This document shows, piece by piece, positions 5,455-47,750 of a DNA stretch of 64,000 bases (position 1 is its first letter; every line of letters begins with the position of its first letter). The stretch is taken from contig NC_088867.1 in assembly GCF_032884065.1 (NCBI RefSeq), forward strand, positions 28,143,507 through 28,207,506, given 5' to 3'. A program made the position numbers and the translations under genes. The notes beneath the pieces were generated by a model, which saw only the letters and a list, made by a program, of their open reading frames with translations, was not told the DNA's origin and made no database searches. Source of the stretch: Artemia franciscana (lineage: Eukaryota > Arthropoda > Branchiopoda > Anostraca > Artemiidae).

Positions 5455-5654
5455 TGGGCGATTCATTCAATTTGCAAAATTTCACAAAATTTTCTTTCCT
5501 TCCATTAACGCATCATTGCTAAAAAAAAAGTCCGCCCCGGTTTTCGCAATATCGGCGTGAACATTCCCCACATTGCGTGAGCAACCGCAAATAAATTTGC
5601 GGCCAGATTTTTTTCTCGTATTTTTATAAGCTCTTTGACAATCCTTGCGCAATT

Positions 5655-5840
5655 ATCGCTTCTCAGCCTTTGGGCAAAGACAGTGTAGTAGTTGTTCTCA
5701 TCATCTTAATATCTAATCCGGTCCATACATAGGGTCCAATTTATTAAACTGATTTTTAGAAACCAGAGGGATGTCGGGGCTTGCTCTGCTCCCTCCACGT
5801 GTTGTTCCGGTATTGCAGTATCTGTGGGATCGGCGCACCC
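5655..5840 (+). pseudogene. U2 snRNA-like sequence, full length (186 nt)
   Basis: Starts ATCGCTTCTCAGCC and ends CGGCGCACCC, as U2 does (about 188 nt). It contains the branch-point recognition segment GTGTAGTAG, the TTAATATCTAAT region, a Sm-like site (GATTTTTAG), the CTTGCTC stem segment and GGTATTGCAGTATC. The U6-pairing segment is altered (GGGCAAAGACAG instead of GGCTAAGATCA), so it is probably a pseudogene or repeat-embedded copy. Confidence 0.85.
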
Positions 5841-5864
5841 TTATCTAGGGGATTCATATATATT

Positions 5865-6027
5865 ATAGTCACCAGGCTGGAGAACTGCCTTGTTCATGAA
5901 CGAGGCGCTCCCAGGGTTAGGGCTCTTCATTACACTTTGGATTGACTGACCCCTGAGAATATTCCGAAATTGGGTAACTCAATAGCGTAATTTTTTGTGG
6001 GGGAATGCTTTTTCGTGAACCGGGGTC
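5865..6027 (+). pseudogene. U1 snRNA-like sequence, full length (about 163 nt)
   Basis: Matches U1 from ATA..CACCAGGC at the 5' end through TTCATGAACGAGG, GCTCCCAGGG, ATTACACTTTGGATTGACTG, ACCCCTGAG, the Sm site AATTTTTTGTGG, to a 3' stem ending CCGGGG. U1 is about 164 nt. The 5' splice-site-pairing segment reads AGTCACCAG rather than ACTTACCTG, so normal function is unlikely. It lies 24 nt downstream of the U2-like copy, on the same strand. Confidence 0.85.
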
Positions 6028-6491
6028 TATACATTGTAAAATATCATCCTTTAGGTTCTTTCACGTTTCATATATCATTTGGTTTAAAAGAAAAACTACA
6101 CAATTTGTTGTTATTGTTAAGACGATAATGCGACATGTAAACTTGATCTTTTAGGCCTTTTTGAAAAACATAATTTCTTGATAACTTCATATGTTTGAAA
6201 TACGGTGGAAAAATTGTCATTGAAAAGGGGCGTGTTTTCTTGGGTGTTTTATTAAAGAAACTGAAAGTACAACACAATTCGCATTCCCTGGGAATGTATA
6301 GCTGGGATCGGTTCACCCTTATCCAGGGAAAACCTAAGCTCATCCCTGCCAGTGTTTTTTACTATCAAGCATTTCAACTCTGATGCATTTATAAATTGTT
6401 GATAGAGAAATTTTAGAATCGTTAAACTATTTGATATAATTATAATTGATTTTAAAAAACAGATCAACATTTTGAATTGAAAGCACGGCCT

Positions 6492-6701
6492 TCATCCGCA
6501 AGCTTGGCAGTTGTAGCAGGGAGGAGGGAGAGGGAGAAACTTCTCGACGCGGATTAGTTCATACTCGATTATCGCTGCCGAGGAAATGACTGCTAATAAG
6601 TCGTCTCGACGTGAAAACCGAAGCTTAAAGGACCTAGTTTTGCCGATAGATTCTACAGTACCCTGCACCCCCGATACCAGAGTTGAACAGGTCATTCGCA
6701 C
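6492..6701 (-). pseudogene. LINE ORF1 C-terminal fragment with CCHC-like knuckle
   Basis: The minus-strand frame contains KTRSFKLRFSRRDDLLAVI, EYELIRVEKFLPLP and CYNCQACG. The 'R/V-E-F-P-P-x-C-x2-C' layout is typical of the zinc knuckle ending ORF1 of many non-LTR elements. It is cut by a stop exactly where the inverted-repeat arm begins. It may belong to the same family as the fragment at 4850-5454. Confidence 0.45.
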
Positions 6702-6966
6702 TCTAACATTCTGTGTCCCATATCAGATATGAAGCTTAGCCACCCAATTGCATGTGGCTGTTATTTCAGAGAGTATTGAAATACTGGTCTCTCATCACCA
6801 ACACCAAGCTTTTAGTTCGAATTTTGACGAGTTTTTTACAAATCAATTATAAGTCTCAAATAGCTTAACGACCAGTCGACTAGCAATTTAAAATTATGCA
6901 TTAGAGTTGAAATACTTCATAGTGAAAATTAAATAGCGGCCACGAGCTTAGGTTTACCCTACACAA

Positions 6967-7228
6967 GGGTGCGCCGATCCCATAGATACTGCAATACCGG
7001 GTCGACGCGAAGAGGGAGAGGAGCATACCCTTCCGGTTTCTAAAAATCAATTGAATAAACTGGGCCCTATGTATGGACCGTATTAGATATTAAGCTGATG
7101 AAAACAAATACTACACAATGATCTTTGCCCAAAGGCTGAGAAGCGATAATGCGCAAAGATTGTCGAAGACCTTACAAGAATACGAGTAACAAAGTTTGGT
7201 CGTAAACTTATTTGCGGCTGCCATCCTT
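6967..7228 (-). pseudogene. Third U2 snRNA-like copy with conserved 5' flank
   Basis: The U2-like body is 7147-6967 (181 nt), starting ATCGCTTCTCAGCC and ending CGGCGCACCC. About 75 bp upstream (7148-7228; GCCGCAAATAAGTTT, ACTCGTATTC, CGACAATCTTTGCGCA) also matches the flank of the copy at 5655 (about 5575-5654). Downstream there is shared flank but no U1. Shared non-transcribed flank suggests duplication at DNA level, not retroposition. Confidence 0.78.
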
Positions 7229-7329
7229 AAATAACATTTAATTAATTTATAAGCTTATTTTGCATTTTTCAAACAGTTCAAAACTTATCACACCATCTAA
7301 AAGTTAATTTTAAAATTTCTATGGTAAGC

Positions 7330-7875
7330 AAAAAATTATCAAGTCATACAAAATTGTCATCTTTAACACTACATTACCTGTAAGTTATAGTCCAGCTCAG
7401 AGACAAAAGTGGAAAAGACAAAATAAGAGCAGCAAAAAAAAAGAATATAGGCCATAAGTCAGAGACACGTAATTTTGCCATTTAGCAGCCAATAGTCGGA
7501 ACTAGTGTTGATAAATGGTGTCAATTCATGGTAATTAGTAGGAGAAGGGATAAAAAAAAGTTTTTAAAATCCAGAGAGGAGAATTCTGTTAAAAAAAACA
7601 AATTGTTTCTGCAGTACCTTCCCCCCCCCCCCACGATCACGAAGTTGAACAGATCATTCGCACTCCAATATTCTGGGCCCCGTGTTCTTATAAGCTTGTG
7701 ATTTTAGGCTCAATTTTTTCAATATATTTCAAACATGTGACTTTATCAAGAAATTATCATTTGCATACAACTGCATACAAACTGTCATTTAAAGCAAAAC
7801 AATGATCAAGTCTCCGTGGCGAAATCGATTAAGGCGCGAATGGAGCAGAAGCCATCTCTTAAAAATGGAAAAGTC
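7330..7875 (+). repeat. Left arm of a second inverted repeat, with tRNA-like end
   Basis: Its reverse complement recurs at about 9648-10195, for example CAGAGACAAAAG, TTTCTGCAGTACC, CATTCGCACTCC and the AAGCCATC segment. The right end (7812-7870) resembles the 5' half of a tRNA, with an A-box-like TGGCGAAATCGATTAAGG, but I find no B box. Part of it (about 7612-7700) also resembles 6645-6730. Confidence 0.7.
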
Positions 7876-8446
7876 CCCTTAGACAAAGATTGTTTCCCTG
7901 AAAATAAAATTTACTTAAAATTTTATTTTATTGAAAATAAAATAAAATTTAAAATTTTGAAAATATGTATGATGAAGGCCGTGCTTTCAATTCAAAACGT
8001 TGATCTGCTTTTTTTTAAATCAATTATAATTGTCTCGAACAGTTTAACGATACTAAAATTTCTCGATCAACCATTTGCAATTGTATCACAGTTGAAATGC
8101 TTGATAGTAAAAAAAAAACACTGGCAGGGATGAGATTAGGTTTTCCCTGGACAAGGGTGAACCGATCCCAGATACACATTCCCAGGAAATGCGATTTGTG
8201 TTGTGCTTTCAATTGCTTTAATAAAACACCCAAGAAAACACGCCTCTTTTCAATGACAATTCTTCGAACCTATTTCAAACATATGAAGTTATCAAGAAAA
8301 TATGTTTTTCAAAAAAGCCTAAAAGGTCAAGTTTACATGTCACATTATCGTCTTAACAATAACAAAAAATTGTGTAGTTTTTCTTTTAAGCTAAATAATA
8401 TGTGAAATATGAAAGAACCCAAAGGATGATATTTTACAATGTATAG

Positions 8447-8610
8447 ACCCGGGTTCACGCAAAAGCATTCCCCCACAACAAAAATTACGCTATTGAGTTA
8501 ACCAAATTCGGGGTATTCTCAGGGGTCAGTCAATCCAAAGTGCAATGGAAAGCCCTAATCCTGGGGGCGTCTCCGTCATGAACAAGGCAGTTCTCCAGCC
8601 TCGTGAGTAT
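8447..8610 (-). pseudogene. U1 snRNA-like sequence, directly fused to U2
   Basis: 164 nt, the canonical U1 length, starting ATACTCACGAGGCTGGAG on minus. It contains TTCATGACGGAG, CCCAGGATTAGGG, CACTTTGGATTGACTG, ACCCCTGAG and the Sm site AATTTTTG. The 5' end begins one base after the end of the U2-like copy. The splice-site-pairing segment is ACTCACGAG instead of ACTTACCTG. Confidence 0.86.
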
Positions 8611-8611
8611 A

Positions 8612-8799
8612 GTATGTGCCGATTCCACAGATCCTGCAATACCGGGACAACACGCGGAGGAAGCAGAGCAAGCCCCGACATCTCTATGGTTTCTAAAAAT
8701 CAGTTTAATAAACTGGACCCTATGTATAGACCGTATTAAATATTAAGCTGATGAGAACAAATACTACACTGTATCTTTGCCCAAAGGCTGAGAAGCAAT
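8612..8799 (-). pseudogene. U2 snRNA-like sequence upstream of the fused U1
   Basis: About 188 nt. It starts ATTGCTTCTCAGCC, retains GTGTAGTA, TTAATAAACTGGACC-type sequence on the opposite strand and GGTATTGCAGGATC, and ends CGGCACATAC where canonical U2 ends CGGTGCACCC. Confidence 0.85.
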
Positions 8800-8825
8800 A
8801 GTTGCGCAAGGATTGTCAAAGAGTA

Positions 8826-9647
8826 TGAGGCACTTTTGACTCATCTCACCAAAAGTGCACATATTGCCTTTTGGTGAGATGATCTTCCCCTTTAAGCATT
8901 CTTTGAAGTTTCAACTTAATACCCAAATCAGTTCTTGAGATGCGCGGTTTTAACAATTTTCATACCCATAGAATCTTTTGATTTAGCTCGAATTTCCCCT
9001 CAATACTGTAAATAAAGTAGTATGGTAGTAGTAATGGTGGTAGTTGTGGTAGTATTGGTAGCATGCAAATATTGCCTTTTTGATTATATCCCTTATCATT
9101 TTTTGAATTTTCCAAATTAATATACTCAGTTATTCCTTTGTTACACCCTTATGACAATCCTTATACACATAATGTGTTTTGATTTAGTTCAACACTCCCC
9201 TCAAGATTCTCTGAAAGGCTCACCTAAGTTTACCCCGTCTTCTTGGAAAGTAAAGTTCAAACATGCATACCTTTCTCATTAGCATATACTGTGTGTAGAC
9301 AATGAACGAGTTGCCTAGCTTACAGCCCTTGTCCCGAGGGCAATGGGGAGGTTAACAACCCCAAAGACATAATTACTGGACCTTTTAACAAAGTTGAACA
9401 AAATAGATCTCTTAAAATTTCGATCGGATATGTTTTGGGGAATGATAGGCTTGGGGGGGATTGATTGCCCTCCATTCATTTTTGACTCGTAAAAAGGGGA
9501 CTATAACTTCGGACTTCCAATAAATTGAGCTCCATCCGATCCAAAGCGTATATGACCACCCGTTCAATAAAACTTTATATGCCGCAGGGCATACCTTACA
9601 ACCCTTGCCCATGGGCTCTGAGGCATTGTGTGAAAATAATGTTTATG
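8826..9647. other. Diverged dispersed-repeat sequence, no gene seen
   Basis: Contains phrases of the dispersed family that is better preserved at 22850-25300 (TCCCGAGGGCAATGG, GACTCGTAAAAAGGGGAC) and a short GTA/GTG-rich tract at about 9018-9060. No exon is recognised. Confidence 0.45.
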
Positions 9648-10195
9648 CCTCGTAAGGGATTTTTCCGTTTTTAAGGGATGGCTTCCACTCCATTTGCACC
9701 TTAACCGATTGCGCCATGGAGGCTTGATGATTGTCTTGCTTTAAATGATAGTTTGTCTGCAGTTGTTGTGTTCATATCTGATAATTTTCATTTTGATTAA
9801 TTTTTTTTTGATTAATTTTTAATTAATTTATTTGATAATTTTAAAGAAATGTGATCAATTTCTTGATAAATTCACATGTTTGAAACATTTTGGAAGAATT
9901 GAGCTTAAAATCTTTAGCATATAAGAATATGGGGCCCAGAATATTAGAGTGCGAACGATCGGTTCAACCTTTGGATCTGGAGTTGGGGGTACTGCAGAAA
10001 CAATTTGTTTTTTCTTTAAAAAAAATTCTCCTCTCGGGATTTTCGAAAATGTTTTTTAATCCCCTCCCCTAATAACTACTGTGAATTGAGGCCATTGATC
10101 AACCCAAGTTGATTTTGTCTTTTCCGCTTTTGTCTCTGAGTAGGACTACTTACAGGCGATTCAGTTTTAAAGATGACAATTTTGTCAGCGGTCAT
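9648..10195 (-). repeat. Right arm of the second inverted repeat
   Basis: Reverse complement of 7330-7875. On minus, its tRNA-like end reads CTCCATGGCGCAATCGGTTA, which fits a Pol III A box better than the left arm does. It could be a worn tRNA-derived SINE head. Confidence 0.65.
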
Positions 10196-10907: not shown

Positions 10908-13310
10908 TATGGCACTTGGTATTAACCAAGTGACATAATATGTCACTTGGTTATAGCAATCGCCAATTCTGTTGGTTCCGGTTTTGCTACTTTAGGCACT
11001 TCCAGGTAAGCTAGGACGATGAAATTTGGCAGGCGTATCAGGGACATGACCAGCTTAAATTAGAAATAGTCGTTTTCCCAATTTGACCATCTGAGGGGAG
11101 GGAGTGGGGGGCCGGTTAATTCGTAAAAAATAGAAAAAATGAAGTAAATCCCGACTGAATCTGATGAGCTTGGGGGGAGTTGGAGGGGGGGAACCTAAAA
11201 TCTTGGAAAACACAGAGTGGAGGGATCGGGATGAAACTTGGTGGGAAAAATAAACACAAGTCCTAGATACATGATTGACATAAACGGAACGGATGCGCTT
11301 TCTTTGGGGTATTTGGAGGGTGGGAGGGGGGTAATTCTGAAAAATTAGGAAAAATGAGGTATTTTTAACTTACGAAACGGTGATCGGATCTCAATGAAAT
11401 TTGATGTTTAGAAGGATATCGTGTCTTAGAGCTCTTATTTTAAAACTTAACCGGATCTGGTGACATTGGGGGGGGGGAGTTGGGAGGGGGAAACCTAAAA
11501 CTTGGAAAACACTTAGAGTGGAGGGATCGGGATGAAACTTGGTGGGAAAAATAAACATAAGTCCTAGGTACATGATTGACATAAACGGAACGGATCCGCT
11601 CTCTTTGGGGTAGTTGGGGGGGGGTATTTCGGAAAAATTAGAAAAATGAGGTATTTTTAACTTACGAACGAGTGATCGGATCTCAATGAAATTTGATATT
11701 TAGAAGGATATCGTGGCTCAGAGCTCTTATTTTAAACCCGACCGGATCTGGTGACATTGAGGGGGGGAGTTGGGAGGGGGAAACCTAAAACTTGGAAAAC
11801 ACTTAGAGTGGAGGGATCGGGATGAAACTTGGTGGAAAAAATAAGCACAAGTCCTCGATACATGATTGACATAAAAGGAACGGATCCGCTCTCTTTGGGG
11901 TAGTTGGGGGAGGGGTTAATTCTGAAAAATTAGAAAAAATGAGGTATTTTTAACTTACGAACGAGAGATCGGATCTCAATGAAATTTGATATTTAGAAGG
12001 ATCTCGTGTCTCAAAGCAATTATTTTAAATTCTGACTGTATCTGGTGACATTGGGGGAAGTTTGGGGTGGGGGAACTTAAAATCATGGAAAACGCTTAGA
12101 TTGGAGAGATAGGGATGAAACTTGATGGGGAAAATAATCAGAAGTCTTACATTCGTGATTTACATAATTGGAACGGATCCGCTCTATTGGGGGGGGGGGG
12201 TCGATTATGAAAAATGAGAAAAAATGACGTATTTTTAACATACGAAGGAGTAATCGGATCTTCATGAAACTTCATAGTTACAAGGATCTCGTAACTCAGA
12301 TCTCTTATTTTAAATCTCAACCGGATCAAGCGTAATTGGGGGGGGGGGGCAGTTGGGGGGACCGGAAATCTTAGAAAATACTTAAAGCGGTGAGATTAGG
12401 ATGAAACTGGATGGGAAGAATAGAAACCTGTCTAAGATACGTGACTGACATAACCGGACCGGATCTGCTCTCTTTAGTGGAATTGGGGGGGGGGGAATTT
12501 TGAAAATAGAGGTATTTGTAACTTACGAAAGGGTGACTAGATCTTAATGAAATTTGATATTTAGAAGGATCTTGTGCTTTAAAGTTCTAATTTTAAATTT
12601 CCGACCAGATCCTGTGACATTGGGGGGAGTTGGGGGGGAGGAACTGGAATTTTTGGAAAACGTGAAAATTGGGGTATTTTTATCTTACGAATAGATGATC
12701 GGATCTAAATGAAATTTGATTTTTAGAAGGAATTTATGTCTCAGAGCTTTTATTTCAAATCCCGACCAGATCTTTTGACATTGGGGGGTGTTGGAGGTGG
12801 AAATCTTGGAAAAACACTTAGAGTGGAGGAATCGGGATGAAGCTTGGTGGATAGAATAGACAAATGTCCTTGATACGTGATTGACAGAATCGTACTGGAT
12901 TTGGTCTCTTTGGGGGAGTTGGGGGGAGGGCTTCAGTGATTTGGCGAGTTTGGTGCTTCTGGACGTGCTAGGACGATGAAAATTGGTAGGCGTGTCAGGG
13001 AGCTGCACAATTTGACTTGATAAAGTCGTTTTCCCAGATTCGACTATCTGGGGGGCTAAAGGGAGAGGAAATATCAGAAAAAATTAGGTATTTATAACTT
13101 ACGAGTGGGTGATCAGATCTTAATGAATTCTGATATTTAGAAGGACATCGTGACTCAGAGCTCTTATTTTAAATCCTGACCGGCATTAAGCCTCTTATTT
13201 TCCTTTTTAAATCAATCTATTGATTCATATAATTTTGTTAGAGCTCATACCATATGATCTCTTGGCTCTTAGCTCTTCTCGCCTCGTCACAAGTGCCATA
13301 TGAGCTCTTA
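10908..13310 (-). mobile_element. Composite satellite element, copy 1
   Basis: The left end carries ATGGCACTTGGTATTAACC, part of an imperfect palindrome (CACTTGGTATTAACCAAGTG). The right end carries CACAAGTGCCATATGAGCTC. The outer ATGGCACTTG / CAAGTGCCAT pair forms a short terminal inverted repeat. Between them run degenerate tandem units of about 290 bp, marked by CGGATCCGCTCTCTTTGGGG, ATCGGGATGAAACTTGGTGG and TTTGATATTTAGAAGGAT. This copy is inverted relative to the copies at 18187 and 38989. There is no transposase, so it is either non-autonomous or a satellite transposed with its edges. Confidence 0.75.
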
Positions 13311-16028: not shown

Positions 16029-19000
16029 CTGCAGAGAAAAAAAGGCTTTAAACGCTAATAATCTAAAACAACGACAGTTTTATTCAGACTCGTACCTAGG
16101 ATTTTCCTTAGGAATACGAAGAAGAAGAATCAATACAATCACTTTATGGGAAGTAGGGGAGGGGGAGGGGTCGACTACAGAAAAGGTTTTTGGTTAGATC
16201 TCTTTTAAAGATTAAATAGCCAAGATATGCATATTTTATAAAAACATTCTTGTATCTTTTTCAAGGCATTGGATTAACCCACCATGTCCCATTTCTCTCT
16301 AGCTTCTATCATTAATGGTTCTTGATTTCCTTAAAATAAAAACTTTTTAATTCTATTTCTTAATAAAATTAATCGTGTAATACAATCGAACTGATTTTAA
16401 TGGATACAAAATTAAAAATTGATTAATTTCACCACGCCGGATTTACTAGAGCCAGGTTCTTGGGCGGCACAAACGAGTGGTTAAGATGGTAGATTTCTTT
16501 ATTACAAATGATGTAAATATTTTTTTTTTTGTTTAAAAGAAGATGTTAAAATATTTCAGTGTATATTCCGCAGTCAAAAAAGTGCTTGTTAATTCTTAAA
16601 AATGATTTAATCAAAAATTACCACTACAAAAGCGCTCACTTGATAAAGATCTACGTGTTTCCATATATTCGCGCCCGTATAGGCCTCACCATACTGTAAT
16701 GATGGCTGCATACGGTTAGTGGTGGGCTAATTAGACGGCAAAGTGAGAGTCCCACTACACTAATTACAAGACGAAAGTTTTCGAAGGAAGGACAACCACA
16801 CTTTCACCTCCCGTTTCTGCCCCCGTGCACTTCCACATTGGATCGGACCAAATTTCAAAACAGCTATTGTAACCAAACGGTCGAAGAGTTAAAAAGTCTG
16901 CCTCAGGGGAGGGGCATGATTATGGAGGCCCAGGGGCAAGGGCCACAAATTATACAAATTGTCCATTAAAAAAAGGCTTCATAAACATGTTACAGTTCGT
17001 TAAAATCTGTGACAGTAAGTAATGGAAGTAATTTGTCTTTATACAAATGGTTACGTTGCGATTATAAATAAAATATAATTTAATATAGACTTCCTTGAAT
17101 ACAGACATGCCTCAATCCGTCATTGTGTCAAATAAATTTATCTCCTGTTTTGTTGTAACTGTCAATCTACTTAAATAAATGAGGGTAAAATACGTTTCCA
17201 GTTTGTTATAGTTTTACAATCTTTCAGGACAAAACTACCTTTAAATAGTTTTTAACAGATCGGAGTATCTTCACATTTATGCCCAATAGCATTGTCGCCC
17301 TTTTCGGACTACATTTGTTGTTTTGCCACACAAGGCAGCCAAACTGATTGGCTTTCATTCCTGGTAGAAAAAAGAAGAAAAATAAATAAAATAAACAAGC
17401 TTCTTTGGCTATCCTTTGTGGGAAAGGTAAGAAATTGTGTATTTTTTTAGAAAGAGAGCCGATTCCTCCATTTTGTCTTATACTAGTACTGCTTCACATT
17501 GAATTCAAAAACTAACAATAGGATCTTGGTGTTACATGATTTTCTTTTTTTTTCTATTCTAATACTGAGAAGATTCGCCAAGAAAATGTTTTGAATTCTT
17601 TAACGATTTGATTTTCATCTTTGAAAACCTTTGAAGTTTTTCGAACCTTTTGGCAATTATCTTGGTACACTTCGCTGTTCTCCTCTTTTTCAGATTTTTG
17701 GCTGAAAATAAGACTTCTATTTCCTCTATCTATTTCCAATTTATTTGATAGCAAGAACAATTTTGTTCCAGAAACAAATTTGTATTAGGTTCAAATGCAA
17801 ATCAGAAATGTACCATGTATTTAAACGACTATCTAACCCAGTGGTTCCAAAACCCTTTTAGACCACGAACTCCTTTTCATTGTCAGAACTCGCCACTGAC
17901 CTGTCTCAAAAGTTTGTGTTTATAAAAAACCTGTTTAAAACAGGTTTTAAAAATTGTTATAAGAAGGTGCAATATGTGATGCCTTTCTTCTAAAAATTTG
18001 GAAGTTGAAGGGGTAGGGGTATTTGAAGGGTATCACTTCGCAAAATCTGTGAAATTCTTACCTCAATTCAAATTTTCTTTTCGTGGCCTTAATTTCTGGT
18101 ACACGTCTGGTATTATGGACCTAAAACTGTGGTGGCCTTTTCATTAAAAGTTAAATTTTGATTAAAAACAATATCTAAGAGCTTATATGGCACTTGTGGC
18201 GAGGTCGGAAGAGCCAAGAGCTCATATGTTATGAGCACGTGGTCCTTCTAAATATCAAAATTCATTAAGATCCGATCACCCACTCGTAAGCTAAAAATAC
18301 CACAATTTTTCTAATTTTTCCTCGCCCTTCAGCCCCCCAGATGTTCGAATCGGGGAAAACGACTTTATCAAGTCAATTTGTACAGCTCCCTAACACGCCT
18401 ACCAATTTTCATCGTCCTAGCACGTCCAGAAGCACCAAACTTGCCAAAGCATTGAACCCCACCACCTAACTCCACCAAAGAGAGCGGATCCAGTCCGGTT
18501 ACGTCAATCCAGTATCTACGACATTTATGAGCGTTTTCCAAGATTTCCGGTTCCCCCTCCAACTCCCTCCAATGTCAAAAGATCTGGTCGGCATTTGAAA
18601 TAAGAGCTCTGAGACACGAGTTCCTTCTAAATATCAAATTTCATTAAGACCCGGTCACACGTTCTTAAGTTAAAAATACCTCAGTTTTTCTCCATCAAGT
18701 TTCATCCCGATCTCTCCACCCTAAGGGTTTTCCAAGATTTCCGGTTTCCAAGATCTCTGTTTCCCCCTTACAACCCTCTATGTCCTCAGATCCGATTCGA
18801 GTAGAAAATGGAGCATCTGAGACATAAGGTTCTTCTACATATCAAGTTTCATTAAGATCCGATCGCCCATTCGTAAGATACCTCGATTTTCACGTTTTCC
18901 AAGAATTCCGGTTTCCCCCTCCAACTCCCTTCAATGTCACCGAATCTGGTCGAGATTTAAAATAAGAGTTCTAAAGCACAAGATCCTTCTAAATATCAAA

Positions 19001-22000
19001 TTTCATTAAGGTCTGAGCACCCAATTCGTAAGTTACAAATCCCTCTTTTTTCTAATTTTTCCGAATTACCCCCCCCCCCAACTCTACCAAAGAGAGCGGA
19101 TCCGGTCCGGTTATGTCTGTCACTTATCTTGGACTTGTACTTATTCTTTCCACCAAGTTTCATCTGGTCTCTCCGATTTAAGCGTTTTCCATGATCCCCC
19201 CCCTAATGACACTGGATCCGTTCGGGATTTAAAATAAGAGATCTGAGTTTCGAGGTCCTTCTAAATATGAAATTTCATTAAGATACGATAACTCTTTCGT
19301 AAGTCAAAAATACCTAATTTTTTAGAATTAACCCTCTCCCCAACTCCCCCAAAGAGAGCGGATCCGGTCCGGTTATGTCTGTCACTTATCTTGGACTTGT
19401 ACTTAATCGTTCCACCAAGTTTCATCCTGATCTCGCCGATTTAAGCGTTTTCCATTATTCCCCCCCCCCCCTAATGACGCTGGATCCGTTCGGGATTTTA
19501 AATAAGAGATCTGAGTTTCGAGGTCCTACTAAATATGAAATTTCATTAAGATACGATAACTCTTTCGTAAGTCAAAAATACCTAATTTTTTCTATTTTTT
19601 TAAAATTAACCCTCCCCCCAACTCCCCCAAAGAGAGCAGATCCCTTCCAGTTATGTCAATCCCGTATCTAGGACTTGTGCTTATTTTTCCCACCAAGTTT
19701 CATCCCGATCCCTCCACTCTTAGCGTTTTCCAAGATTTTAGGTTCCCCCCCAACTTCTACTTAACCGGATCCGGTCGGGATTTAAAATAAGAGCTGTGAG
19801 ACACAATATCCTTCTAAACATTAAATTTCATTAAGATCCGATCACTCCTTCGTAAGTTAAAAATACCTCATTGTTTTTAATTCGTCAGAATTAACCCTCC
19901 TTCCCCAAATCCCCCAAAGAGAGCGGATCCGTTCCGGCTTTTTGAATCACGTATCTGGGACTTGTGATTATTGTTACACCAAGTTTCATCCCGATACCTC
20001 CACTCTAAGCGTTTTCAAGATTTTAGGTCCCCCTCCCAACTCCCACTATTGTCACCGGATCCAGACGGGATTTAAAATAAGAACTCTGAGACACGATATC
20101 CTTCCGAAAATCAAATTTCTTTAAGATCCGACCACTCCTTCATTAGCTAAAAATACCTCATTTTTTCTAATTTTTCAGAATTAAACCTGCCCCCCCAACT
20201 CCCCCAAAGAGAGAGGATCCGTTCCGGTTATGTCAATCACGTATCTAGGACTTCTGCTTATCTTTTCCACCAAGTTTCATCCCGATCTCTCAACTCTAAA
20301 CGTTTTCCGAGATTTTAGATTATCCCACTCCCAATTCCCCCAATGTCACAGGATCCAGTCGGGATTTAAAATAAGAGCTCTGAGACACAATGTTCTTCCA
20401 AACTTCAAATTTCATTATGATCCGAATACTCCTTCGTAAGTTAAAAATACCTCATTTTTTCTAATTTTCAGAATTAACCCCCCCCCCGCCACCTCCCCCA
20501 AAAAGAGCAGATCCGTTCCGGTTATGTTAATCACGTATCTAGGACTTCTGCTTATTTTTCCCATCAAGTTTCATCCCGATCCCTTCATTCTAAGCGTTTT
20601 CCAAGATTTTAGGTTCCCCCCTAACTCCCCCCAATGTCACCAGATCTGGTTAGGATTTAAAATAAGAGCTCTGAGACACGATATCCTTCCAAAAATCAAA
20701 TTTCATTAAGATCCCATCACCCATTCGTAAGTTAAAAATACTTCATTTTTCTATTTTTTCCGAATTAACCGACCCCCCACTCTCCCCCCCAGATGGTCAA
20801 ATCGCGAAAACGACTATTTCTAATTTAATCTGGTCCGGTCCCTGATACGCCTGCCAAATTTCATCGTCCTAGCTTACCTGAAAGTGCCTAAAGTAGTAAA
20901 ACCGGGACCGCCAGACAGACCGACAGAATTTGCTATCGCTATATATCACTTGGTTAATACCAAGTGCCATAAAAAACCATAACATTGAAACGTTTATAGA
21001 CATTTAACGACATTTCGAATGGATCCGAGTGCCGGTTATCCTTGTTTACCAGATAAATACCAGACGTGTACCAGAATTGGTACAAAGCCATAATTTTTAA
21101 TAGTGCTAATAACTCCTTTGAATCTTTTTTTATTAGCCATATTTTACAACCTTCTTTAACGGTTTTTATAAAAAAAATCGTTGAAGAAGCATTTATTTAA
21201 AATTGTTACTTTTGTTTTAAAATACAATAAAAATGAATGACTTGGGTGAATCTAACGTAATGTTATGACTGTATTTATGTCTGGTTCAGTGTATGTGACT
21301 AGCAACCACAATTCCCCACGAGCACTAACTTATAGTAAGTTTTTCTTTTTTTCAAACGAGTGTTTGAAAAAAAAAATTTAATTTAAAAAAAACTTTACAA
21401 AATTTGCCCATTGCTTACGTAGTTTACTATTGGGAAGTATGCATATATTTTTCGGGCGGGGCAGAGGGAATTTTCTGCTGGTGGGATTTTCCACAGGGAT
21501 AATTTCCCATGGGAAGAGAAGGAAATTTGTCAGGGGAAATTTTACACAGTAGGGATTGGCCAGAATTCCTATGCGAAATTCTTCTTACGTCTTGCCTTCT
21601 CTTTGCCTACGCAGTTTTACGCGTGGAGATGTTAATGATAATTGTCCGTGGTAAATTTTCACCAAGATTGAATAGTCTAGAGAATAAATCTGTGGGGAGG
21701 AGGGATTTTTCCGTGGAGGTGTAGTCAGATTTTCTGGCATTATTTTAACGACCAGAAATAAAAAAATAATAATAAAAATTATTATTTTAATCAACAATAA
21801 TAACAATAGTAAATAGTTTCGACAGGATATAATAAAGCAGTAATTCCAAACATTCAGAGAAGTAAACAAAATAAACGAAAATTGAACACTATAACTTTTA
21901 GGATGTACTATTTGAAATTGTTAAACCTAATATGTCTAATTACTTCTACAGAATCATCAATAATATATTCTCTAGAAACACCTTCGTTAAAAAAGTTTTC

Positions 22001-28300: not shown

Positions 28301-31300
28301 AAAATTTGGAAGGAAAAATTAGTTAAGAAACCAAACGAGCCAGTGAAAAGTTTTAGCTATATTTGATAGATGATGCAGAGCTAGCCCTTTAATAGAAACA
28401 GAAAAGCTCATGTAACATAAAACAAAAATGCTTTTTCATGAGCCGAAAGGACATTAAGTACTCTGCAAAAAATAACATACTAATTTATACAGCTCTCAAC
28501 AGATTTCTTCCGCCGTCACATCGATGGCTTTCCGTATACAGCTAAATTCTATAAAAAAAAAACGAAAGCAGTAACAAAGAAAACGGGCTGATTTATGAGA
28601 CAACTAATTACACTCAAAGTTGTAAATTCAACAGCTACTGTTACAAAATCTTAAACTATCTGCAAGTCCAGGTGATTGCTGGTCATAAGTTTTCAACCTA
28701 AAATCTTGGTCCTCGACTGCAATTTCAGTATGCTTTCCCAAGTAGACTAAGCCCATAAAATATGAAAAATCTCGGTTGGCCGTTCGCCTGCAGCTGGAGT
28801 GGGCATTATCGGTTGTGATACAGCCAAAAATCTCGGTCATCTCATTATGATTTCAGTGGGCTTTCTCAATAGGCAAATCCCGAACAGTTCGAAAAACCTC
28901 GGTCGCCTGTTCACCTGCAACTCCAGTGGACACTGTGGTCAGGATTAAACCCAAAAATCTCGGTTACCCCACTGCGATTCCACTGAGATTTCCCAGTAGA
29001 AAAAGCCCCTACAATAGGAAAAATCTTGGTCATCCGTTCGCCTGGAAGTCCATTGGACATTGTTGTTCATGAGTCAACCGAAAATCTTGGTCGACTCACT
29101 GTGATCTCAGTGGGCATTCCCAATAGGCAAAACCCGAACAATATGGAAAATATCAGTCGTCCGGTCACCTACAAGTCCAGTGGACATAATTGGTCATGAT
29201 TCTCAATAGGCAAATCCCGAACAGTTCGAAAAACCTCAATCGCCTGTTCACCTGCAAGTCCAGTGGACACTGTGGTCAGGATTCAACCCAAAAATCTCAG
29301 TTACCCCACTGCGATTCCACTGAGATTTCCCAGTAGAAAAAGCACCTACAATAGGAAAGATCTTGGTCATCCGTTCCTCTGGAAGTTCACTGGACATTGT
29401 TGTTGACGAGTCAACCCCAAAAATCTTGGTCGACCCACTGTGATCCCAATGGGCACTCCCAATAGACAAAACACGAACAGTTTGGAAAATATCAGTCGCC
29501 CATTCACCTGCAAGTCCAGTGGACATTGTATGATTCAACCGAAAAATCTCGGTCACCGCACTGCGATTCCAGTGGGTTTTCCCAGCAGGCCACGCCCACA
29601 CAATAGGAAAAATCTTGGTCATCAATTCGCCTTGAAGTCCATTTGACATTGTTGTTCATGAGTCAACCAAAAATCTTGGTCAACCCATGGGGATCCCGGT
29701 GGGCATTCCCAATAGACAAAACCCAGACAGTTTGGGAAATATCAGTCGCTTGTTCACCTGCAAGTCCAGTGGATCTTGTTGGTTATGATTCAACACAAAA
29801 ATCTCGGCACCACACTACGATTCCAGGGGGTTTCCCCAGTAGAAAAAGCCCATACAATAAGAAAAGTCTTGGTCATCCGTTCGCCTGGAAGTCCATTGTA
29901 CCCTGTTGTTCATGAGTCAAACGAAAATCTTGGTCGACCCAATGTGATCCCAGTGGGCATTCCCAATTGGCAAAATCCGAACAGTTTGGAAAATATCAGT
30001 CGCCCATTCACCTGCAAGTCCAGTGGACATTGTTGGTTATGATTCAACCCAAAAATCTCGGGCACCACACTGCAATTCCAGTGGGTTTTCCCAGTAGTCA
30101 AAGCCCATACAATAGGAAAAATCTTGGTCTTTCGTTCGCCTGGAAGTCCATTGGACATTGTTGTTCATGAGTCAACCAAAAATCTTGATCAACCCACTAT
30201 GATCCCAGTGGTCATTCCCAATAGACAAAACCCGAACAGTTTAGAAAATATCGGTCACCCGTTCACCTGCAAGTCCAGTAGACGTTGTTGGTTATGCGAA
30301 AACCGTGGATGCGACCTTGGAAGGCAATTTTCGGTAGTTGGTCGTTGCGCATGCGCTGGACGTGGCCAAGCCACCTGAATTGTTGGACACGGACCCTGTT
30401 CAGGATGGTAGTGTTATACTGCATTCTTTTGAGTAAGTCGGCATTTGAGCCTCGATCTACGTATGTTACACGAGCTATTCATACCACAGGAGCTTTGTCT
30501 CAAACGCGGCGAGTCGCCTGGAGTCATCTACTTTGACTATCCATGTTTCAGAACCGTACATAGCTATAGGAATGATGATAGAGCAGAATAGTTTAAGTTT
30601 TAGCTTCACGGGGATTCAATTTTGTTTCCATATTGGCATCAGAGCTTTGAAGCTGGTGCTACCCTGAGCGAGGCGTCTTTTGATGTCCACTGAGTGATTA
30701 TTGTCGCTCGCGATCTGGCTCCACAGATATGTGAAGCTGTCTACCCATTCTTTTCCCACTCCATTAAGCTTTATTTTTGGTGGAGATGGGCTATTGAACC
30801 TAGACACGCACGTGGTTTTCGTTTTATCCTCGTTGATTTTCGTCTCGAAGGTTCCTGCAACTACTTCAAGGTTATCTGCTTTGGTTTGGAGTTCAGCGAC
30901 GGATCCAGTGAGCATGTCGATGTCGTCTGCGTATGCCAGCTTATCGATTACAATCCCTCCTATCATTGCTCCATTGGTTGCTTCAACATGCGACATTACA
31001 CCAATGGAGGAAGAGATTAAGCATATGAGATGAGAGGATGAATCCTTGCATAACACCAATAGAAGTTGAAGGCCCTCTCTCCGAATTAAGTCGAAAGCTT
31101 GTTTGAAGTCAATGAAGAGTTGATAGAGGTCCTGACCGTATTCAAGGTATTCTTCCATTACTTGACGGATGACAGAAATCTGATACTCAGGAATGATGTA
31201 ACTGGTTAATGCTTTTATCTGTCCAGTAGTATCTTGATCAACACTTTGGCAGGTTGGCTTGTCAGGCGGATTGGACGCTAATTGTCTCATTCAGCTTTTC

Positions 31301-37300: not shown

Positions 37301-40300
37301 GCATAGGGTCTGATATGCAACAAGTGGACGGCGATTGTGTCTGCCGGATTTCCTTTTTGAAGTAATCAATGGACGGTTTTCAGGGATGAAGCCATTCCAG
37401 GTTTACGCATAGCGTCTGACATAGGTATTCTTAAGTACTCAGTCTGTGGCTTCTGCTCTAATAGGCAGTTCGAGAATGCCATATTTTGGTGTATTTGCCG
37501 TGTTGCCACGGCAAAACATGGCATGGACATTAAAGAAAATTTACTTTTAATTATTTAGAATAAGTAAACGATTTAGTTTATTCCATGCTATTTATCGATA
37601 AAAGTCATTTGTTAAATTTACAGTTGCTGTTACACCTAAAAGTCTATCTGATATCTTCAAACTTGTGGAATAATTGCCAAAAATTGTTTGCTGAGCTGCA
37701 GTCAAAGAGAGGACCAGGAGGGTAGTGTTTGTTCCCTCACAATTTAGTTCTCCTCATTTAAATTATCTTGCTCCTCCTTCCTTTGAGAACAGCTTAGCAA
37801 ACTGTTTTTGTCAAATACCTAGGACGTGTGAAAATGTCACATTTGACCACAAGGCATAACAGCAACGATGTTTAATTTCCACCAAGTACTAAATCCAATT
37901 AAAGATTCAACCAAAGAGCATGGGTAACTTATAAGAGTGGAAATTGCCACTAGTTTTGACAACAACAAAAAAACTACCAGTGCCATCTATCGTTTGGTGA
38001 CGGTTGGCATTTTTCAGTGTAAAAATTAAAATAATTAATTTAATTAGTGCAATGGCAAAATTAGGGTAACAACAAGTATCTGATCTCAGTTTCTGATAGA
38101 AAAATGATTACAGAGCTTGAAAAAAAATGCGAAGTGTCACCATAAACCAGATGGCGTCGATAGTATTTTTGTCGACACTTGGCATTAAACGATATATACA
38201 TTTTCCGCCAATCTACACCTCTCTAAAATCCAATGCCATTTAATAATTCATAATCTGTACAGAAACGAGGCCACTGATTTGTCTGAAGTCCCACTTCAAC
38301 CATGTATGGTACGCAATCCAATAGCAGTTGACATTGTTTAATAAACAGCCTATAATGAATGTTCATTTTCTTTGGACTACGTTTATTTTGTGGGAAAATA
38401 TACCACCGTAAGGAAGTCTTCTAAAACTGAAAGATTTTATAATTAGCTTTTCAATAGCTTTAAACCTTTTGGCTATCTCTATCAGTTGTCATTGAATGGC
38501 ATTCTAGCCCTATTTAGACCAAAATCGTCCTCTTGCAAGCCAAAACTGACATAAACTGAGACCTTAATATGGTAAGATGGGTTAAATTGCTCAAATGAGG
38601 GCATTTGAGCTTTAAATTCCAGCTCGATTGAGCCCTCTTCCAATATTCTATGGTAATTGATTCAAAACAATGATCCCAGAGGAAAAATAAACAGATATTC
38701 GTGACCATCCTTCTCACGAAAAAGAATCAAATGTCATATTTTTCAGGTAGGAGTTAGGAAGCTCTGATCTAGGATTCTTCGAAATTTTCTGGTGTAATTT
38801 TCATCAAGACTACACCGCTTTTTGAAAATAATTGCCCGTTTCTTTAAAAAAAAATGATAATCTTTCCTAGGTTAACAAAACTGACAAATTCTGTTTATTT
38901 GAAATCAGCATAAAATGCAAATTCTCTACAGTAACAAAATAGTAACAAAAATAATGACAACTTATTCTTCTAACAAGGGATAAGAGCTCATATGGCACTT
39001 GTGACGAGGTAGGAAGAGCCCAGAGCCAAGAGCTTATATGGTATGAGCTCGAACAAAATTCTAAGAATCAATAGATTGCTTTAAAAGGAAAATCAGAGGC
39101 TTAATGCCGGTCGGGATTTAAAATAAAAGCTCTGAGTCACGAGGTCCTTCTAAATATCAAAATTTGTCAAGATCCGATCACCCACTCGTAAGTTAAATAT
39201 ACCTTAATTTTTCTAATTTTTCCTCGCCCTTCAACCCCCCAGATGTTCGAATCGGGGAAAACGACTTTATCAAGTCAATTTGTACAGCTCCCTAACACGC
39301 CTACCAATTTTCATCGTCCTAGCACGTCCAGAAGCACCAAACTCGCCAAAGCATTGAACACCACCACCTAACTCCACCAAAGTGAGCGGATCCAGTCCGG
39401 TTACGTCAGTCACGTATCTACGACATTTATAAGCATTTTCCAAGGTTTCTGGTTTCTCCCTTCCAGCTCCCCCCAATGTCAACAGATCTGGTCGGGATTT
39501 GAAACAAGAGCTCTGAGACATGAGTTCCTTCTAAATATCAAATTTCATTAAGATCGGGTCACCCGTTCATAAGTTAAAAATACCTCAATTTTTCTTACTT
39601 TTCAAAATTAACAACCCCCAGCTCCCCCAAAGAGAACGGATCCGTACCAATTAAGTCAATCTCGTATCTATAACTTGTGCTTATTCTTCCCATCAAGTTT
39701 CATCCCGATATCTCCACTCTAAGCCTTTTCCAAGATTTTCGGTTTTCAAGTATTCTGTTTCCCCCCTTCAACTCTCTATGTCCCCGGATCCGATTCCAAT
39801 TGAAAATGGAGCATCTGAGACAGAAGATTCTTCTATATATCAAGTTTCATTGAGATCCGATTACCCATTCGTAAGATACCTCGATTTCACGTTTTTCAAG
39901 AATTCCGGCTTCCCCCTCCAACTCCCTTCACTGTCACGGGATCTGGTCGGGATTTAAATGATAGTTTTAAAGCACAAGATCCTTCTAGGTATCAAATTTC
40001 ATTAAGACCTGATCATCAGTTCCTAAGTTACAAATACCTCATTTTTTTAAAATTTTCCGAATTTGGGTTTCAAGGTCCTTCTGAATATGAAATTCCTTTA
40101 AGATACGATCACTCTTTCGTAAGTTAAAAATATCTAATTTTTTCTAATTTTTTTAGAATTAACCTCCCCCAACTCACCCAAAGAGAGCAGATCCGTTCCG
40201 GTTATGTCAATGCCGTATCTAGGACTTGTGCTTATTTTCCCAACCAAGTTTCATCCCGATCCCTCCACTCTAAGCATTTCCAAGAGTTTAGGTTCCGCCC

Positions 40301-43300
40301 CCCCAACGCCCCCTTCACCAGATAAGGTTGAAATTTAATATAAGGGCTCTGAGACGTGATATCCTTCCAAACATCAAATTTCACTAAGATCCGATCACTC
40401 CTTCGTAAGTTAAAAATACCTCATTTTTCTATTTTTTTAGAATTAACCCCCCCCCCACACACACAACCAGAGAGAGCGGATCCGTCCCGGATGTCAATCA
40501 CGTATTTAGGACTTGTGCTTATTTTTCCCACCAAGTTTCATCCCGAACCCTCCATTCGAAGCGTTTTCCAAGATTTTAGGTCCCCCCCACCCTCAAGTCC
40601 TCCAATGTCACCAGATCCAAGCGGAATTTAAAATAAGAGCTATGAAACACGGTATCCTCCCAAATTTCAAATTTCATTAAGATCCGATCATTCCTTCGTA
40701 AGTTAAAAATACCTCATTTTTCTAATTTGTTCAGAATTAACCCCCCTCCCCAACTCCCCCAAACATAGCGGATCCGTTCCGGTTATGTCAATAACGTATC
40801 TAGGACTTATGCTTATTTTTTCCACCAAGTTTCATCCCGACCCTCCACTCTAAGCGTTTTCCAAGATTTTAGGTTCCGCCCCCCCCAACATCCCCTTCAT
40901 CGGATAAGGTTGAAATTTAATATAAGAGCCCTGAGACATGATACCCTTCCAAACACCAAATTTCATTAAGATCCGATCACTCCTTCGTAAGTTAAAAATG
41001 CCTTATTTTTCTAATTTTTCAGAATTAACCTCCCCCCCCCCACACACACACACAACCAGAGAGAGCGGATCCGTCCCGGATGTCAATCACGTATTTAGGA
41101 CTTGTGCTTATTTTTCCCACCAAGTTTCATCCCGAACCCTCCACTCTAAGCGTTTTCCAAGATTTTAGGTCCCCTCCCCCACTCTCAAGTCCTCCAATGT
41201 CACCGGATCCAAGCGGAATTTAAAATAAGAGCTATGAAACACGGTATCCTTCCAAACTTCAAATTTCATTAAGATCCGATCATTCCTTTGTAAGTTAAAA
41301 ATACCTCATTTTTCTAATTTGTTCAGAATTAATCCCCCTCCCCAACTCTCCCAAACAAAGCGGATCCGTTCCGGTTATGTCAATCATGTATCTAGGACTT
41401 GTGCTTATTTTTTCCACCAAGTTTCATCCCGACCCTCCACTCTAAGCGTTTTCCAAGATTTTAGGTTCCCCTCCTCAATTCCCCCCCCCCCAATGTCACC
41501 AGATCCAGTCAGGATTTAAAATAAGAGCTCTGAGACATGATATCCTTCCAAACGTCAAATTTCATTAAGATTCGATCACTGCTTCGTAAGTTAAATATGC
41601 CTCATTTTTTCTAATTTTTCAAAATTAACCCCGCCCCCCCAACATCCCCTTCACCGGATAAGGTTGAAATTTAATATAAGAGCTCTGAGACATGATGTCC
41701 TTCCAAACACCAAATTTCATTAAGATCCGATCACTCCTTCGTAAGTTAAAAATGCCTCATTTTTCTAATTTTTGCAGAATTAACCCCCCCCCCCCCCACA
41801 CACACACAGAGAGAGAGCGGATCCGTCCCGGTAATATCAATCACGTATTTAGGACTTGTGCTTATTTTTCCCGCCAAGTTTCATCCCGAACCTTCCACTC
41901 TAAGCGTTTTCCAAGATTTTAGGTCCCCCCCTCAAGTCCCCCAATATCACCAGATCCAAGCGGAATTTAAAATAAGAGCTCTAAGACACGGTATCCTTCC
42001 AAACTTCGAATTTCATTAAGATCCGATCACTCCTTCGCAAGTTAAAAATACCTCATTTTTTCTAATTTTCAGAATTAACCCCCCCCCCCAAACTCGCCCA
42101 AACAGAGCAGATCCGTTCCGGTTGTGTCAATAACGTATCTAGGACTTCTGCTTATTTTTCCCACCATGTTTCATCCCGATCCCTCCACTCTAAGCGTTTT
42201 CCAAGATTTTAGGTCCCCCTCCAACTCCCCCCAGAGTCACCGGATCTGGTCGGAACTTAAAATAGGAGCTCTGAGACACGATATCCTTCCAAACATCAAA
42301 TTTCATTAAGATCCCATCACCCGTTCGTAAGTTAAAAATACTTCATTTTTTCTATTTTTCCGAATTAACCGGCCCCCACTCCCTCCCCCCAGATAGTCAA
42401 ATCGGGAAAACGACTATTTCTAATTGAATATGTTCCGGTCCCTGATACACATGCCAAGTTTCATCGTCCTAGCTTCCATGGAAGTGCTTGAAGTAGCAAC
42501 ACCAGGACAGACAGACAGACCGACAGAATTTGTGATTGCTATATGTCACTTGGTTCATACCAAGTGCCATAAAAAGCCCAAGGATCATCGCAATACAAAT
42601 GAAAAAATCCAATTCTAACCAAAATAAATGTAACTGAAATAAACAGTACATACACATAAACACAACAAAATTGCACTAGTTACAGAATCTATTTCTATGC
42701 TCCTTTTCTAGTCTAATCTTTCCACACTCACAAGACTCTCATCACTTATTATGCTTGCCAGCCATCTTTCATCGAACCTACAATCTCCTTATGTTTCCTT
42801 TCGTAACTCACTAATTTTTTCTCACTCATCCATCATATGACCTATCGTCTCATCCATAGCTTCTCATATGGTGCAAAAATAGGGACCATCCTGCCGTTGA
42901 CTCTTCCCAAAATAAATTTTTATCAAAACTCTTTTTTATAGAGTTTTGGCTCCTTTTTAATAGGGTTTCGGCTCCTTTTTTATAGAGTTTTGGCTCCTTT
43001 TTTATAGGGTTTTGGCTTCTATTGACAGAGACCACCCTTTATTCTATAATTGAGTTACCTGTTTTTATTTTACTTTGTTTATTTTCAATGTAATCCTCTA
43101 GCCTATCGAAGATAATAAGTTCATGATGAAATGAATTTTGTAAGTGTAAAAAAAATCTGTTCTATCTATTTTTCTAAAATTATCCGTTTTAGAGTTTCGG
43201 TTACTATTGGTGTGGGTCAGTCACTACTGAGTTTTATCCTTTCGTTTCTGTCATGACGTTAAAGATCATGCCGATTTCTTTTCAGAACCCGTTGCTTTCC

Positions 43301-45517: not shown

Positions 45518-45589
45518 TGACGTCATTTTTCTGTGTTGACTGACGTCATGAAATTAGTTGTCGTCATTTTTGCTTTGACGGTGACGTCA
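45518..45589. promoter_or_regulatory. Cluster of three CRE-like palindromes in Helitron 1
   Basis: Perfect TGACGTCA at 45518-45525, 45541-45548 and 45582-45589. The 5' region of the Helitron at the window start has four more. Binding by CREB/ATF/bZIP factors is inferred from the motif. Confidence 0.45.
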
Positions 45590-45988
45590 TTAACGGTATT
45601 TAAGACATTTGTTCACGGAAAAATGTTTAATTTTAAAATGACTGAAGAACCTACAATGGCAACAGCCGAGGAAGCTGCTCAAAGAGTTTATGCCAAAAAA
45701 CTTGCTGCTGATAGAGAAAGTAAGAAAAGAAAGCGTTCCGAGGAATCACAAGAACAGCAAGAAAACAGGCTTGCAGCTGATAGACAAAGTAAGAAAAGAA
45801 AGCGTGCCGGGGAATCACAAGAACAGCAAGAAAACAGGCTTGCGGCTAAAGAACGCAAAACCGCGCAGTTAGATGAAAATCCACCTGGACAGCAAGAGTC
45901 AAAACATATCAAAACTGAAAATGATAGCGATGATGATTGGGTTTGGGATTTTGACTTGGATAAGGTCATCAATGCCTACCAGATTTAA
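45533..45988 (+). CDS. Helitron replicase N-terminal remnant, 151 aa
   Basis: Two tandem 22-residue units (ESQEQQENRLAADR followed by a KKRKR cluster) precede an acidic tail (NDSDDDWVWDFDLDK). Arg-rich 'E-S/T-x-EQRE-x-RLAADR' repeats of this kind occur in the N-terminal region of animal Helitron Rep/helicase proteins. The Rep HUH domain and most of the helicase are absent. The start could be Met at 45533, which gives a hydrophobic N-terminus (VVVIFALTVTSLTVF), or an internal Met at 45623 or 45638 near MTEEPTMATAEEAAQ; the internal starts fit the family better. It may be expressed, but I infer a dead remnant. Confidence 0.6.
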   Translation: MLTDVMKLVVVIFALTVTSLTVFKTFVHGKMFNFKMTEEPTMATAEEAAQRVYAKKLAADRESKKRKRSEESQEQQENRLAADRQSKKRKRAGESQEQQENRLAAKERKTAQLDENPPGQQESKHIKTENDSDDDWVWDFDLDKVINAYQI

Positions 45989-46109: not shown

Positions 46110-46540
46110 CTCAAAGAGAAATTACAGACCGGGACACAAATGACGACCGAGACAGAGGGAATATAAGTGACGACCGGGAACCTCAAAGAGAAATTGCAGA
46201 CTGGGACACCCGGACACAAATCACGACCGGGACACAGGGAATATAAATGACGACCGGGACACAGGGAATATAAATGACGACCGGGACACAAGGACACAAC
46301 TACAACGGGGACGCCGGGGGCACAGGCGGGATATATAAATGACGACCGGGACACAGGGATTGTTCGAATAGAAATTACAGACCGGGACACCGGGACACAA
46401 ATGACGACCGGGACACCGGGACACAGGGAATATAAATGACGACCGGGACACTCAAAGAGAAATTACAAACTGGGACACCGGGACACAAATGACGATCGGG
46501 ACACAGGGAATACAAATGACGACCGGGACACAGGGACACA
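46110..46540 (+). repeat. Helitron-borne minisatellite
   Basis: A core 27-bp unit (ACCGGGACACAGGGAATATA then AATGACG) and shortened variants (GGGACACCGGGACACAAATG, CTCAAAGAGAAATTACAGAC) in irregular tandem. The same array appears at 1-180 (minus) and 47560-47750. Unit lengths near multiples of 9 keep long frames open on the minus strand; these are not genes. Confidence 0.85.
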
Positions 46541-47292: not shown

Positions 47293-47750
47293 AAATGATG
47301 ACGGGGACACAGGGAGTGTTCGATTAGCAATCACCATCAACAAAGCTCAATGGCAATCATTAGAATCATGAGGTATAACTAAAAAAAACTAAAAAAAAAG
47401 GTAAAAAACTAAAAACTAGGAAAAAGACCAATTCAAAAACGAATGTATATACAGACCGGGACACCGGGACACGGGTTTAACCAGATGCGACTAAAATTGG
47501 ATCGTTGTCAGATCTATATATATAAAAATAAGTTCAAAAACGAATGTATATACAGACCGGGACACCGGGACAAAAATGACGACCAAGACACAGGGAATAT
47601 AAATGACAACCGGGACACTCAAAGAGAAATTACAGACTGGGACACCGGGACACAGGGAATATAAATGACAACCGGAACACAGGGACACAACTACAACGGG
47701 GACGCCTGGGGGACACAGGGGGATATATAAATGACGACGGCGACACAGGG

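Follow-up and report, generated by a model that had tools for sequence, protein, structure and literature searches.

The window (the whole 64-kb stretch of DNA analysed) was searched on both strands with the covariance models of Rfam 15 at their gathering thresholds, and five snRNA matches were found, three to U2 and two to U1, with E-values from 5.8e-16 to 1.9e-20. We named the copies A (starting at 5655 on the forward strand), B (a lone U2 on the minus strand) and C (the U2-U1 pair at 8447..8799 on the minus strand). All three U2 matches fall within RF00004, scoring 98.8-106.2 bits against a gathering threshold of 46, and both U1 matches fall within RF00003, scoring 83.1 and 72.3 bits against a threshold of 69.5, which the copy A score of 72.3 only just exceeds. 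An initial annotation made by reading the letters had placed a U2 and a U1 side by side in both A and C, and RF00004 and RF00003 called both snRNAs at these places. As the E-values are far below chance, the U2-then-U1 order on the same strand at both places is real. The features of the three copies, including the flanking segments T1 and T2, are as follows.

Copy A, forward strand
5581..5654, +, U2 upstream flank common to B (against 7221-7148), probably the old promoter region
5655-5843, +, U2-like sequence (RF00004, 101.3 bits, E 2.9e-19, model positions 1-192)
5818..5850, +, left copy of the duplicated U2 3' end with flank, from alignment
5851..6295, +, 445-bp insert composed of 14 nt, U1 (5865-6025) and T1 (6026-6295), absent from B and common to C
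5865-6025, +, U1-like sequence (RF00003, 72.3 bits, E 5.8e-16)
6296..6328, +, right copy of the duplicated U2 3' end, from a shuffle test against U2
6329..6496, +, U2 3' flank T2, common to B and C
Copy B, minus strand
7148..7221, -, U2 upstream flank common to A, from alignment to A
7147-6964, -, U2-like sequence without a U1 (RF00004, 106.2 bits, E 1.9e-20)
6808..6963, -, U2 3' flank T2 directly after U2, an apparent empty site, from alignment to the joined flanks of A
Copy C, minus strand
8799-8618, -, U2-like sequence with its 3' end lost, the Rfam call running to 8609 (RF00004, 98.8 bits, E 1.2e-18)
8610-8448, -, U1-like sequence (RF00003, 83.1 bits, E 4.5e-19)
8176..8447, -, tail T1, with 246 of 268 aligned sites as in A 6026-6293
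8145..8175, -, right copy of the U2 3' end, from alignment and a shuffle test against U2
7971..8144, -, U2 3' flank T2, from alignment to A and B

Two features of this list were absent from the initial annotation, namely the third U2 (copy B) and the second U2 3' end downstream of each U1. The arrangement is explained by that third U2 together with the second 3' ends (6296-6328 and 8175-8145).

Insert and bracketing duplication in copy A

In copy B, U2 runs directly into T2, whereas in A and C T2 comes only after U1, T1 and the second U2 3' end. Outside the insert, A and B are related on both sides of U2: the 74-bp upstream flanks (A 5581..5654 and B 7221-7148) aligned with 61 matches, 12 mismatches and 2 gap columns (61/73 aligned sites alike), the two copies also share about 7 bp of flank beyond the 3' end of the U2 model, and their T2 segments over 6332-6484 had 113 matches and 29 mismatches. 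When the flanks of A were joined without the insert and aligned to B, we obtained 342 matches, 67 mismatches and 33 gap columns, and B was unbroken at the joint. The joined flanks of A thus reproduce B, and A therefore carries an insert at 5851-6295, with B looking like an uninterrupted empty site. Alternatively, recombination between the direct repeats could have removed the insert from B, although parsimony and the larger divergence between A and B make insertion the more probable direction of change.

The duplicate that brackets the insert is the terminal 31-33 bp of U2 with adjoining flank, the left and right copies in A being alike at 23/26 core sites and different at 3. The stretch carrying the right copy (6240-6345 in A) scored above 300/300 shuffles in each of four comparisons with U2. 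There was no support for U2 sequence extending farther upstream from the right duplicate, 33 to 189 of 300 shuffles reaching or beating that part in four comparisons. The U1 in A begins 14 nt from the U2-derived stretch and may lack a promoter of its own, and the insert ends without an A-rich 3' end, its tail T1 being 270 bp long.

Because the upstream 74 bp and the 3' flank are shared with B, the U2 part of A is gene DNA. The initial annotation had considered a template-switched RNA joined before insertion. Two different snRNA sequences were indeed joined, but an RNA-level fusion of U2 and U1 is unlikely given that A has its U2 within resident gene DNA, with flanks common to B and no likeness to a cDNA, and for U2 we rejected it.

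Inverted copy, tight junction and probable decay

Positions 5631-6496 of A and 8823-7971 of C are inverted copies of each other, 88.0% alike over 876 columns, and the upstream flank of A is missing from C. Relative to A, 23 bp are also missing from C, and the alignment places them at the last U2 bases and part of the spacer. The tight U2/U1 fusion in C is probably due to a later loss of these 23 bp at the boundary. In the initial annotation, this pair was a full-length U2 followed after about one base by U1 on the minus strand. The order and strand held, but homology to the other U2 copies ends at 8618, the last 9 U2 positions of the call (8617-8609) were forced by the covariance model, and the U2 and U1 calls have 2 nt in common (8609-8610). 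The global model bridged the 23-bp loss and returned an apparent full-length U2, and the near-perfect fusion is partly an artefact, its tightness overstated. The pair read at 5655-6027 is also present, but with 21 nt between the calls (5844-5864) instead of 24 nt. As the model here stretched U2 across a deletion, adjacent covariance-model matches need not represent one joint gene.

We then counted differences among the copies, the comparisons resting on three U2 and two U1 copies only. Between A and C, 70/812 counted sites differed, the count excluding the spacer, columns with gaps and the 24 nt that precede U2. The differences were 30/341 in U2 and U1 and 40/471 in T1, the right duplicate and T2 (Fisher p 0.90). 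The snRNA parts and the spacers are thus equally diverged between A and C, as expected of relics. Judged by this lack of constraint on the snRNA relative to its surroundings, A and C class as snRNA pseudogenes, while the comparison of A with B leans the opposite way: U2 differed at 21/181 sites and T2 at 29/142 (p 0.043), and between C and B the counts were 24/167 and 35/144, respectively. The lower divergence of U2 than of T2 relative to B may be a weak hint of an earlier constraint on U2. Together with the 3/26 core differences between the bracketing repeats of A, these counts fit an order in which B split off first, followed by the insertion and then by the inverted copying, an order and not a date given the few sites.

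Changes at strongly conserved positions were counted over the upper-case letters of the Rfam consensus, for U2 over its first 104 positions only. In U2, 9/57 such positions were changed in A, 7/57 in B and 7/57 in C, four of them in all three copies; in U1, 15/70 were changed in A and 10/70 in C, with 7 in common. At the U1 5' end, positions 6 and 10 were altered in both copies, position 4 in A and position 9 in C. Positions 6 and 10 belong to the region of U1 that base-pairs with 5' splice sites. Neither U1 therefore has the intact 5' end of a functional U1 that pairs with 5' splice sites, presuming that the species uses the usual U1, and some of the shared snRNA changes may be species-typical rather than signs of decay.

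Among the base pairs of the models, 13/46 in A and 14/46 in C were non-standard for U1, and 10/45 in A and 12/45 in C were non-standard for U2 with gaps counted as broken; a count by eye for U2 gave 9 in A, 11 in C and 8 in B. The folding energies were no better than those of shuffled sequences (z of 0.83, -0.40 and 0.39 for U2 of A, B and C, and -1.69 and -1.14 for U1 of A and C), and the spacer controls had z of -1.06 for T1 and -2.48 for T2, the latter being below every snRNA copy. The copies most probably no longer work.

Origin of the U2-U1 composite

We consider that a U1-bearing segment inserted into a decaying U2 copy, and that a local inverted duplication and a 23-bp loss in C followed, with a probability of about 0.6. 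The starting point would have been a small, decaying group of clustered U2 snRNA gene copies. A 445-bp segment, consisting of U1 close to the head and a tail of 270 bp, would have inserted into the 3' end of one of these U2 copies and duplicated 31-33 bp. The composite would then have been copied nearby in inverted orientation, and copy C would subsequently have lost 23 bp at the U2/U1 boundary, giving the head-to-tail look. The insert, the bracketing duplication, the uninterrupted B, the inverted copy, the 23-bp difference and the equal divergence can all be read from the alignment. The initial annotation had named an explanation by one local rearrangement as a case that would refute its reading, and the locus comes close to that case, requiring one joining event and one local inverted duplication.

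As for how the segment arrived, retroposition of a U1-headed RNA is our tentative preference, held at somewhat less than even odds. It is favored by the shape of the target duplication and by the 5' border lying 14 nt from the U1 start. The candidate target duplication is seen for one insertion event, as the 31-33-bp U2 repeats around the insert, in which 3/26 core sites differ. With no A-rich end, 14 nt before U1 and a long tail, the segment may also have been joined at the DNA level, which we regard as rather unlikely but as the nearest rival to retroposition. In that case, a U1 gene fragment with its 3' flank would have broken just upstream of the U1 start, and recombination within a small-RNA gene cluster, either replication-based or unequal, would have attached it to the 3' end of a U2 and duplicated a short stretch of U2. 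Such an event would suit the 270-bp tail after U1 and a region that is prone to inverted duplication, as seen for copies A, B and C and for the neighboring repeat X described below, but it is opposed by a 5' border only 14 nt from the U1 start and by borders that resemble an insertion with target duplication.

It is very unlikely that the whole unit of U2, U1 and second U2 end is itself a mobile composite repeat, in line with the snRNA-derived repeat family suggested in the initial annotation. Copy C lacks the upstream flank of A, and it has the direct repeat TCATAC (6 bp) lying flush at its two ends; by the same rule, repeats of at least 6 bp occurred in 542/40000 random pairs of places. However, this repeat was noticed after the fact, the ends of A gave only 2 bp by the same direct-repeat rule, and no copy was found elsewhere in the 64 kb; the 6-bp end repeat is not enough to conclude that C was transposed as a unit. 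Scarcely any weight can be given to a working unit of the compact snRNA kind that the initial annotation had also proposed, or to a dicistronic precursor of about 350 nt. Although A and B keep a common U2 upstream flank and U2 is less diverged than T2 between them (p 0.043), the snRNA and spacer of A and C diverged equally after the joining, which led us to reject a working double gene. In addition, both copies of U1 are altered at conserved positions, the 5' end among them; neither the upstream flank nor the 3' end of U2 is left in C; and the snRNA folding energies are no better than those of shuffles.

Known elements and neighboring repeats

To describe the spread of the parts, eight profiles were used (U2, U1, T1, right duplicate with T2, U2 upstream flank and three parts of repeat X). 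In the 64-kb window, clear matches were confined to 5559-10190 with no further copy elsewhere, and the remaining listed profile matches had E-values of 0.13 to 0.88. In viral contigs, neither the single U1 pattern nor the single U2 pattern had any match. Repeat X, an interspersed repeat, lies around the snRNA copies in inverted arrangement, at 7348-7877 (+), at 10185-9656 (-) and as a piece at 6651-6723, with 81-86% similarity over three pieces. A stretch of 55 bp is common to the tail T1 and repeat X, and T1 was otherwise not seen to be repeated. The copies of X and the 55 bp that X shares with T1 show that this small region was duplicated in inverted orientation more than once.

By eye, 7811-7850 of repeat X and its inverted partner at about 9724-9685 resemble what we take to be the 5' half of a tRNA-Asn gene. 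We do not claim a tRNA relic here, as ARAGORN found no tRNA in the window and Rfam gave none at these positions up to an E-value of 10. Weak Rfam matches in T1 and X, far below the gathering scores, were likewise set aside.

Among known systems, the locus is placed with the snRNA pseudogenes and decaying clustered U2 families, with which it shares diverged copies, changes at conserved positions and local duplication; unlike them, it has a copy whose 3' end is split by a segment that contains another snRNA, an unusual nested arrangement. SINEs with heads derived from U1 or U2 (SINEU) were reportedly described in crocodilians by Kojima in 2015. The insert resembles SINEU in having a U1-derived head followed by an unrelated tail, but its clear copies are confined to 5559-10190 of the 64 kb and its retroposition is only the tentative reading given above. 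A reading as an snRNA-headed retroposon may hold for the U1 segment alone, and it seems improbable that U1 and T1 form a U1-headed retroposon outside the crocodilian SINEU that landed in, or prefers, U2 3' ends.

The Utopia and Keno retrotransposons also insert inside U2 genes, and in the accessible part of the source the U2 sequence downstream of their inserts starts at nucleotide 39 and some Utopia families produce 20-bp target duplications (PMC4640811). In our copies, U2 resumes after the insert at about nucleotide 159-164 instead of 39, by which site we rejected an insertion of Utopia or Keno as that part of the source describes them, and the 445-bp insert has no reverse transcriptase. The same part of the source describes U2_sat, a U2-derived satellite of sea squirts (PMC4640811), which is alike in being a U2-derived repeated sequence, but here there is no tandem array and U1 is present. 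Chimeric insertions of snRNA and LINE-1 occur in mammals, according to the accessible part of another source (PMC13174262), and are alike in joining an snRNA to another sequence in the same orientation; here, by contrast, resident gene DNA supplies the U2, and the insert showed no recognizable LINE part. Among the titles and abstract openings listed in a literature search, no U2-U1 composite was seen, though one may still be in print.

The locus illustrates that separate snRNA genes can come to look fused when an insertion is followed by inverted copying and the loss of a short stretch. Further copies of the U1 segment elsewhere would make it one more of the few mobile elements that derive from snRNAs, and if it is truly a U1-headed retroposon, one spliceosomal RNA gene family would have been the landing site for an element built from another.

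The window also contains other repeats and open frames. Tandem Repeats Finder detected three related arrays, with units of about 290-296 bp, at 11145-12643, 18933-20778 and 40076-42465, the first in the opposite orientation to the others, and another array at 28700-30296 has a 127-bp unit and a 255-bp double unit. A 224-aa open frame at 30616-31290 (-) has a partial reverse-transcriptase match (PF00078, E 1.1e-05), which at 25.6 bits is weak and below the curated cut-off of 29.6, and is probably a retrotransposon remnant. A tandem repeat of about 27 bp per unit occurs at 33-158 and, in the opposite orientation, at 46138-46540 and 47556-47685. A 155-aa open frame at 45521-45988, which contains two Lys/Arg-rich repeats, adjoins the tandem repeats of this unit.
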